From Dysgonamonadaceae bacterium (lineage in GTDB: Bacteria > Bacteroidota > Bacteroidia > Bacteroidales > Azobacteroidaceae), in the NCBI GenBank assembly GCA_031269685.1, contig JAISYU010000075.1, positions 35,914 to 99,913 of the forward strand: DNA of 64,000 bases, written 5' to 3'. Positions 3,429-63,806 of this stretch are shown here, piece after piece. The notes under the pieces were generated by a model. It saw only the letters and a program-made list of their open reading frames with translations. It was not told where the DNA came from and did no database searches. Numbering within the stretch: position 1 is the first letter of the stretch; each line of letters opens with the position of its first letter. Both the position numbers and the translations under genes were made by a program.

Positions 3429-3516
3429 CTGACAGGACGGCTGGCAGCAGGAGACAGGACGGCTGTCAGCAGGAGACAGGACGGCTGTCAGCCGGAGACA
3501 GAGCGGCTGTCAGCAC
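3429..3516. repeat. 22-bp tandem repeat, 4 copies (gagacaggacggctgtcagcag)
   Basis: Copies at 3429, 3451, 3473, 3495; each contains gacag...ctgtc inverted arms. Confidence 0.9.
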
Positions 3517-3530
3517 GAGCTCGGTCGGAA

Positions 3531-3660: not shown

Positions 3661-3722
3661 AAGAAAGCAGCAGACTTTCGCCTGCTGCCTGCCTTCATTA
3701 AATATTATAGCCTCTGAGAAAT

Positions 3723-3898
3723 GTTTCTTGCTGCCCCTTCCTTATGTCCTGTTGTCTCTCGGATCTGTTTCTTATTGCCCTTTCCTGCTGTCCTGTCGTT
3801 CCTTGAACCTGTTTCTTATCTCCCTCACTCTCAGCCTTATAGTTCCTTGAACTTGTTTCCTGCTGCCCCTTCCTGCGGTCTTACTGTTTGTTGGACTT
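3723..3898. repeat. 44-bp tandem repeat, 4 copies (2 x 22-bp register), running into the 3' end of the DUF4469-like gene
   Basis: gtttctt(a/g)(t/c)tgccc..tcct... units begin at 3723, 3767, 3811, 3855. Confidence 0.85.
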
Positions 3899-28829: not shown

Positions 28830-28865
28830 ATCTTTTTCGTTTTTAATTTGAAAAAAAATCGCGAA

Positions 28866-29159
28866 TTATAATTTGTTTCTTTGTTGTACCGAATTGTCTT
28901 CCCGATTCACGGAAAAACTTTTTCGGTGTACCGAAAAACTTTCCGGGTGTACCGAAAAACTTTTTCGGTGTACCGAAAAACCTTCCGGGTGTACCGAAAA
29001 ACTTTTTCGGTGTACCGAAAAACTTTCCGGGTGTACCGAAAAACTTTTTCGGTGTACCGAAAAACTTTCCGGGTGCACCGAAAAACCTTCCGGGTGTACC
29101 GAAAAACCTTCCGGGTGTACCGAAATTCTTGTAACGTTATGTATAACTTTTTTTGTCAT
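28866..29159 (-). other. Repeat-encoded 97-aa heptad ORF (FSVHPEG/FSVHRKS)n between promoter and the 28829 gene
   Basis: ATG-initiated frame MTKKVIHNVTRISVHPEGFSVHPEG... open through the 21-bp array; coding status unproven. Confidence 0.3.
28911..29131. repeat. 21-bp tandem repeat array, about 10 copies (gtgtaccgaaaaactttttcg / gtgtaccgaaaaactttccgg alternating)
   Basis: Direct reading; ccgaaaaa-c-tttttcgg is a palindrome with 8-bp arms and a single central base. Confidence 0.95.
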
Positions 29160-29167
29160 AGCGGGTG

Positions 29168-29175
29168 CAAAGGTA
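29168..29175 (-). promoter_or_regulatory. -7 element TACCTTTG reading into the repeat array and the 28829 gene
   Basis: CAAAGGTA on + strand, immediately on the 5' side of the array. Confidence 0.55.
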
Positions 29176-37289: not shown

Positions 37290-37592
37290 CTACGCTATTG
37301 CGCAGTAAAATATTTTTGATATAGGACCTCTTTTCCCCTTCTGGTTGACCCAGCAAGCCGCTACGTAAACTATTTTTGCGTGATCAGCCTTTGAAAATTT
37401 CAGGTTGTACGGAGTTTTTGTAGCGAGAACGCTATTTTTTAATTCGGATACATTTGTTGGCAGCGCATCGAGGACATCATAGAACAACATGGCTCCTACT
37501 ACTCCTTTCCACCTTATACCTCCGAATTTCCACTTAATGTCTCTTGATATTTCATTAATAACTTTAAATCTATCAAAGTCATCAAGGATTTT
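37290..37592 (-). pseudogene. 5'-truncated paralog of the 28167-28829 hypothetical protein
   Basis: Reverse-frame reading *KILDDFDRFKVINEISRDIKWKFGGIRWKGVVGAMLFYDVLDALPTNVSELKN...FSKADHAKIVYVAACWVNQKGKRGPISKIFYCAIA* aligns with VEFGES...GIDFVYVVSDEKPTDISQLTEK...FSEKDRGKTVWFAARWQNTRNEKGPWSPIYFAIIP*. Confidence 0.65.
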
Positions 37593-50610: not shown

Positions 50611-50617
50611 CAGTCGA

Positions 50618-50697
50618 AATCTTTAGGGGTGCCCGGTCGGGCTGAGAACATACCCTTTGAACTTGAACAGGTTAGTACCTGCGTAGGGACAAAGATT
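50618..50697 (+). ncRNA. TPP riboswitch (THI element)
   Basis: ggggtgcccggtcgggctgagaacataccctttgaacttgaacaggttagtacctgcgtaggga matches the THI box; P1 stem aatcttt/aaagatt. Confidence 0.95.
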
Positions 50698-50817
50698 GCG
50701 GTATACAGTTATAAGTTTTTGCTTACCAAGCTCCTTTCGATTTCGTTTTTAATAATTTCTCTTAGGTTACTTAAGTCACTTAAGCGGAGTAATGTTTAAT
50801 GTTTCAAATAATTAAAA

Positions 50818-55339: not shown

Positions 55340-55464
55340 CCAAATTATGGAATTCCGAGACCTTTAGATTTAAATCGGAACCATTTAGATTTAAATCCAA
55401 GCCCTCTGGATTTAAATCCAAGCCTTCTGGATTTAAATCGGAGCCTTCTAGATTTTAAAAGGTG
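55340..55464. repeat. 21-bp tandem repeat, 5-6 copies (ccttctggatttaaatccgag-like)
   Basis: Units at 55361 (20 bp), 55381, 55402, 55423, 55444; palindromic ggatttaaatcc core. Confidence 0.9.
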
Positions 55465-63726: not shown

Positions 63727-63806
63727 CTTTCAAGGCTTTAATGATTTTAAGGACGTTAAATGCTTTGAAGGCTTTAATTATTTTAAAGTCTTTAAAGACA
63801 TTAAGG
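63727..63806. repeat. 36-bp repeat (about 2 copies) built on a degenerate 9-bp register
   Basis: ctttcaaggctttaatgattttaaggacgttaaatg / ctttgaaggctttaattattttaaagtctttaaaga. Confidence 0.6.

Follow-up and report, generated by a model that had tools for sequence, protein, structure and literature searches.

BrickBuilt, a minisatellite/MITE of Porphyromonas gingivalis, is made of 23-nt units with one conserved unit sequence; its leader and tail are conserved, its terminal inverted repeats are IS5-like, and it does not carry its own gene (PMC4596501). REP units are constrained by a cognate HUH transposase and by a GTAG motif (PMC8266576). A survey of prokaryotic satellites, i.e., tandem repeats of 10-200 nt, gives up to about 23 satellites per Mb in bacteria (PMC6749651).

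The window, i.e., the whole stretch of 64,000 nucleotides analysed here, comes from contig JAISYU010000075.1 of a Dysgonamonadaceae bacterium. On its minus strand are found, in this order, a promoter core (TACCTTTG), a 21-bp tandem array and a gene encoding a protein of 220 aa, whose family is called A in the following. The comparison with the described systems leads to these points: (i) as in BrickBuilt, the arrays are found in Bacteroidales, are intergenic and multicopy, repeat every two helical turns or so and have promoter activity nearby; unlike in BrickBuilt, the units differ between loci, the arrays are linked to gene families, and, apart from a poly-T/A match, no terminal inverted repeats were found on either side of the window array; (ii) as in the REPtrons of the REP/RAYT (TnpAREP) system, palindromic repeats lie beside a gene and related repeats elsewhere in the genome; unlike in REPtrons, the family A protein has no HUH (Y1) domain (Pfam, NCBIfam; the predicted fold is helical plus FN3-like), and the units are head-to-tail, have a fixed 21-bp period and are unrelated on close paralogues; (iii) with respect to the satellite survey, about 100 arrays of at least four units are counted here in 0.92 Mb, the counting methods being different, and the arrays are partly tied to gene families and have a fixed period; (iv) as in the type III toxin-antitoxin system ToxIN, a promoter is followed by tandem repeats and then by a small ORF; unlike in ToxIN, the family A protein is unrelated, the array is not cognate, and sister families carry their array 3' of the gene.

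No paper on 21-bp arrays associated with these genes was found in a search that covered subscription journals thinly, and for DUF6261 a single paper, unrelated, came up. Judged against the searchable literature, with few subscription journals, the array-gene system is apparently undescribed. These arrays are a class locked in position and in period, free in sequence, and tied to particular gene families.

The array of the window

Table 1. Positions of the array, of its gene and of related features in the window
Feature	Position	Strand	Remarks
21-bp tandem array	28912-29125	- (orientation taken from the downstream gene)	TRF, 10.2 copies, two variants
Promoter core TACCTTTG, Bacteroidota type	29168-29175	-	From the sequence; reads CAAAGGTA on the + strand
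Array-to-start-codon spacer	28830-28911	-	About 82-83 nt; family A median 72 nt
97-aa ATG ORF traversing the array	28866-29159	-	ORF list
Family A gene, 220 aa	28167-28829	-	KDYIP... GPWSxIxxAIIP
Truncated family A copy, 66-aa ORF, C-terminal part	37290-37490	-	C53:73209-73421
Orphan 21-bp array, GATTTAAATCC unit	55361-55455		TRF; unit family of the array of paralogue L117 and of orphan L065:18714
21-bp array, ATATTTTGTTAACGCACGCTG, at contig end	63819-64000		TRF; unit also at the start of C54 (L067:1-152)

The initial annotation had described a 21-bp repeat array of two alternating variants, with a near-perfect palindrome in the unit, between a promoter and a hypothetical gene. The array is real, it does lie between the promoter core and the gene, and the 97-aa heptad ORF and the 220-aa gene are both present where they had been placed (Table 1). 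By TRF, these arrays are minisatellites (head-to-tail repeats of 10-100 bp), and that of the window gives a 94% match when scored with a 42-bp period. The two other points hold in part. The variants CCGAAAAACTTTTTCGG and CCGAAAAACTTTCCGGG alternate over about 8 units, while the 3 promoter-nearest units are all of the CCGGG type; the alternation is thus partial. The palindrome ccgaaaaa-c-tttttcgg is perfect, and confined to the TTTTTCGG variant.

The single-stranded leader of the window folds with z = -7.45, none of 100 shuffles being equally good, and the same array family is present at at least three further sites of the genome. On both grounds the array is far beyond chance. An exact-pattern scan of genome contigs with its unit gave no match.

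Elsewhere in the window, arrays of other unit families are found at 3431-3519 (22 bp, GACAGGACGGCTGTCAGCAGGA) and at 3722-3880 (44 bp). A TPP riboswitch lies at 50615-50707 (Rfam RF00059, 73.9 bits), and Rfam gave nothing else over the window.

Position and period of the family A arrays

Among the family A loci with enough upstream sequence, an array precedes the start codon in 94 of 99, and in 69 of 72 for the cross-phylum set. The period is 21, 42, 63, 84 or 105 bp in 93 of the 94 arrays and 62 bp in the remaining one. The periods observed (21, 41-42, 63, 84) are all near multiples of 10.4-10.5 bp; the spacing of two helical turns, suggested at first for the window array only, is the conserved feature. 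The distance between array end and start codon has a median of 72 nt (interquartile 59-94), and the arrays typically lie 30-130 nt 5' of the start codon, in the window genome, in its relatives and in other phyla. The median is 9.7 units, with 2.4-24 copies across loci; these copy numbers may be collapsed since most loci come from short-read MAGs. It must be noted that loci of one genome are partly non-independent and that gene calls in the locus survey follow simple ORF rules. In the sampled part of the window genome, a 5' array is found for 6 of 8 family A genes vs. 30 of 672 other genes (p = 4e-7), and a 3' array for none of 6 family A genes.

These values bear on a neutral explanation, i.e., minisatellites that expanded by slippage in intergenic DNA under weak constraint, two-turn units being favoured mechanistically. 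Family A loci of several phyla have an array in about 95% of cases, at a constant distance from the start codon, which speaks against it. Random phasing in related genomes had been named as the sign of neutral satellite DNA; the opposite is seen, i.e., the position with respect to the gene is fixed.

Promoter and transcription

Of 69 Bacteroidales family A loci, 32 have the motif TAnnTTTG within the 200 nt that precede the array; the opposite strand has it in 11 of 69, and 5.6 are expected from shuffles. In the array-to-start spacer the motif is found in 2 of 77 such loci, 2.6 being expected. Family A arrays are thus probably transcribed as leaders and, judging from the promoter motif upstream of it, so probably is the window array.

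At locus L006 (C11:3081), the promoter and the leader of the window (about 85 nt) are conserved with the first codons MTKKVIH, and the array is absent. Runs of (AC)n, up to 44 units long and with 80-150 bp of conserved flank, lie upstream of several family A arrays (L117, L118, L126, L139 and also L250) and at contig ends.

Folding and coding capacity of the units

The units have 12.62 matched palindromic positions vs. 10.94 +/- 0.17 in dinucleotide shuffles. Stems of at least 5 bp are found in 37 units vs. 11 expected, and are often loopless or have a loop of 2-3. A perfect circular palindrome was rejected as unifying rule, the enrichment being moderate.

As a structured RNA leader, a transcribed hairpin ladder could control how the family A mRNA is translated or how stable it is. 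The place of the array between promoter and gene agrees with this, as do the folding of the window leader given above and that of the arrays in general, which fold better than column-permuted controls (p = 6e-12). However, sense and antisense strands fold equally well (p = 0.46) and the preference for G-U over A-C is not significant (p = 0.15); a constraint at the RNA level is thus not demonstrated, and strand-specific RNA structure was discarded for want of a signal in the folding comparison. Moreover, many stems are loopless, a 21-nt period is not that of an A-form RNA repeat, and the arrays of families B and C (see below) lie 3' of the gene, some of them past terminator-like hairpins. A structured RNA leader is considered rather unlikely.

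The leader could also be translated into a repeat-encoded heptad peptide, of 97 aa in the window. An ATG ORF is open directly behind the promoter, its promoter-proximal codons (MTKKVIH) are common to the window locus and L006, and the sense frames of the arrays are slightly stop-depleted (2.54 vs. 2.31 +/- 0.05). Against this, ATG ORFs traverse the array in 42 of 80 loci in sense and in 38 of 80 in antisense (equal flanks), the DUF6261 arrays include 41-bp units, which shift the frame, and the units, hence the encoded peptides, have no sequence in common between loci. The heptad peptide does not hold as a rule and is very improbable; the 97-aa ORF of the window probably arises only as a consequence of the 3x7 period.

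Diversity of the unit sequences

The 21-bp period is constant between family A loci while the unit sequences are mostly unrelated. No relationship is seen between the units of L114 and those of L117, which are close paralogues. L222 and L223 encode near-identical proteins and have spacers 88% identical; their units match at 9 of 21 positions, i.e., at random level. The unit type of the window is found without gene at C28 and C32, and at C18, where a gene relic that begins with MAHKDYIPGEV comes after it. The array is thus not a cognate partner inherited with the protein sequence, and co-inheritance of array and protein, contradicted by L114/L117 and L222/L223, was abandoned. The flanks of the arrays are conserved only within subsets of loci.

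Family A protein and its distribution

Family A has 29 matches in the window genome (2.23 Mb, 125 contigs). The 220-aa protein belongs to no family of Pfam, NCBIfam, PADLOC or PHROG, and no match with defence or phage protein families was found (PADLOC, PHROG). In the AlphaFold2 model (mean pLDDT 90, pTM 0.51), the N-terminal domain is helical and the C-terminal domain forms a sandwich; this predicted sandwich matches fibronectin type III domains of the PDB (E about 1e-4). Carriage by phages was rejected, no relative being present on viral contigs, and so was carriage by plasmids, since a search of PLSDB did not find families A and B.

The order promoter, repeats, gap, small ORF, and the fact that the genes are multicopy and horizontally shared, recall a type III toxin-antitoxin pair, in which the array would be a repeat RNA antitoxin and the 220-aa protein the toxin. 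Yet PADLOC, Pfam and NCBIfam gave no toxin match (ToxN, CptN or TenpN), the structure matches include no ToxN-like fold, the C-terminal domain being FN3-like, and near-identical proteins with unrelated arrays speak against the fit of a cognate RNA. Such a pair is extremely improbable.

A scan of genome contigs for family A gave 358 confirmed coding stretches, of which the best 80 are nearly all from termite-gut MAGs of Bacteroidales, Treponema, Planctomycetaceae and Oscillospiraceae, with one cultured carrier, Geminisphaera colitermitum TAV2 (Opitutaceae); this apparent restriction of habitat must be read with the fact that the seeds of the scan were themselves termite-gut sequences. The accession range JAIRJQ-JAITXW corresponds to termite-gut MAGs (PMC11257099). 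In the tree of family A, 9 of 10 spirochaete proteins cluster with moderate support within the diversity of Bacteroidota, which favours transfer over binning error.

Other gene families with arrays

An all-against-all comparison gave three more multicopy families adjoining arrays, B, C and D, unrelated to family A. Their arrays are distributed as follows: (i) family B, 21 bp, 3' array in 14 of 16 and 5' array in 1 of 17 (Fisher p = 2e-6); (ii) family C, 21 bp, 3' array in 10 of 12 and 5' array in 1 of 11 (Fisher p = 6e-4); (iii) family D (DUF6261, PF19775), 5' array in 20 of 24 and 3' array in 5 of 30 (Fisher p = 1e-6), with periods of 41-43 bp and multiples. DUF6261 has 14 matches in the genome, and the L015 gene scores 120.9 bits for a Pfam cut-off of 27. 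The predicted fold of the family B protein is helical, with two bundles, and has no significant PDB match; the family C protein is mostly helical by sequence.

Five family B loci from other parts of the phylum were compared: the 3' 21-bp array is retained at L333 and L335, an array lies 5' at L334 and L336 (the latter with three units only), and L332 has none. The search for family C covered near relatives. At several family B loci a terminator-like hairpin separates gene and array, so the array is probably outside that mRNA. Since the arrays of families B and C are 3' of the gene, and several of family B are past such hairpins, control of the transcription of that gene cannot be the sole role. 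With arrays on both sides of genes, a single account must act at the DNA level, or else the families use the same module differently.

Arrays across the genome

The survey covered 924 kb of the 2.23-Mb genome, sampled as stretches. It gave 100 arrays of at least four units; the fundamental period is exactly 21 bp for 49 of them and 42 bp for 7. The density of 21-type arrays per Mb is 68 in the window genome, 136, 35 and 26 in three relatives with family A, and 0 to 19 in seven other genomes (small samples), six of which have no family A match. About two thirds of the sampled 21-bp array loci (about 38 of 57) adjoin ordinary genes, and convergent gaps are over-represented among array sites.

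The many orphans (49 period-21 arrays in 924 kb), the excess of convergent gaps and the lack of a conserved sequence are in favour of the neutral explanation. It fails on the side rules, since unrelated families use opposite sides and the other side is nearly empty. Neutral growth accounts for the orphan arrays, and is strongly disfavoured for the gene-linked ones; as an explanation of the whole it is quite unlikely.

A selfish or mobile satellite would make the gene-linked arrays masters and the orphans their dispersed copies, in a REP/RAYT-like manner, the copying agent being the gene product or a host enzyme. The recurrence of the window array type at C28, C18 (with the gene relic) and C32 supports it. 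Moreover, 26 of 46 orphans have a unit family common to another array, and 11 of 17 multi-member unit clusters contain exactly one gene-linked array. This one-master pattern is weak, however (p = 0.04-0.48 depending on the threshold). Three orphans were followed through the whole genome: one of them led to loci of family B, another only to further sites without known family gene, and the third to nothing. The rule of one master and many orphans was thus kept as suggestive only. In addition, no transposase-like domain was found, and near-identical genes bear unrelated arrays. A mobile satellite is considered unlikely.

Several contigs end inside arrays (the window end, L035, L067). The end of C53 and the start of C54 lie in one 21-bp array type, and these contigs are thus probably neighbours split by the assembler.

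Two further kinds of dispersed arrays were observed. The first is based on 9 bp (CTTTAAAGN, periods 9/18/27/36) and is often beside 21-bp arrays (window 63727-63796; L026, L028, L036, L045, L047, L053). The second is a 23-bp family with a single conserved unit, CGACAATGTATGCTGGCATGCAA (L024, L030, L034, L036, L040, L053, L058, L066), nearer in kind to BrickBuilt than the sequence-free 21-bp class is.

Discussion

A conserved position and a helical spacing, together with a free sequence, suggest a cis element read by its geometry. The side rules of the families, the palindromic excess of the units and the promoter motif upstream of the array are also in favour of this reading. We tentatively propose, at somewhat less than an even chance and from sequence comparisons, that the arrays may be cis-acting control elements read through helical geometry and tied to gene families. 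The array would present one dyad-symmetric unit per two turns, all units facing the same side of the DNA helix, or alternatively a hairpin ladder in the leader. A putative factor, sensing the dyad or the structure and tolerant to the sequence, would bind cooperatively to the array, and its binding would set the expression of the neighbouring gene. Slippage would alter the number of units and whole arrays would be swapped between loci; owing to both processes the bases would turn over fast, selection holding spacing and place.

Three results count against this geometric reading. The array-linked proteins resemble no DNA-binding family (Pfam, NCBIfam, structure comparisons). The position of the array after the gene in families B and C, and the ordinary neighbours of about 38 of 57 loci, are also against it.

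The chances seem to us even that a new class of genetic elements is at hand, i.e., geometry-coded arrays in which the two-turn spacing and the place beside the gene would be conserved across phyla and the sequence exchanged wholesale, forming a common cis module for unrelated families. If true, a cis element with conserved period and position and a free sequence would evade homology-based searches, and it would be a rare case of selection on DNA geometry, not on base sequence, across bacterial phyla. The arrays join several unnamed multicopy families, DUF6261 among them, in one testable system, and give a handle on the sharing of genes across phyla in the termite gut.
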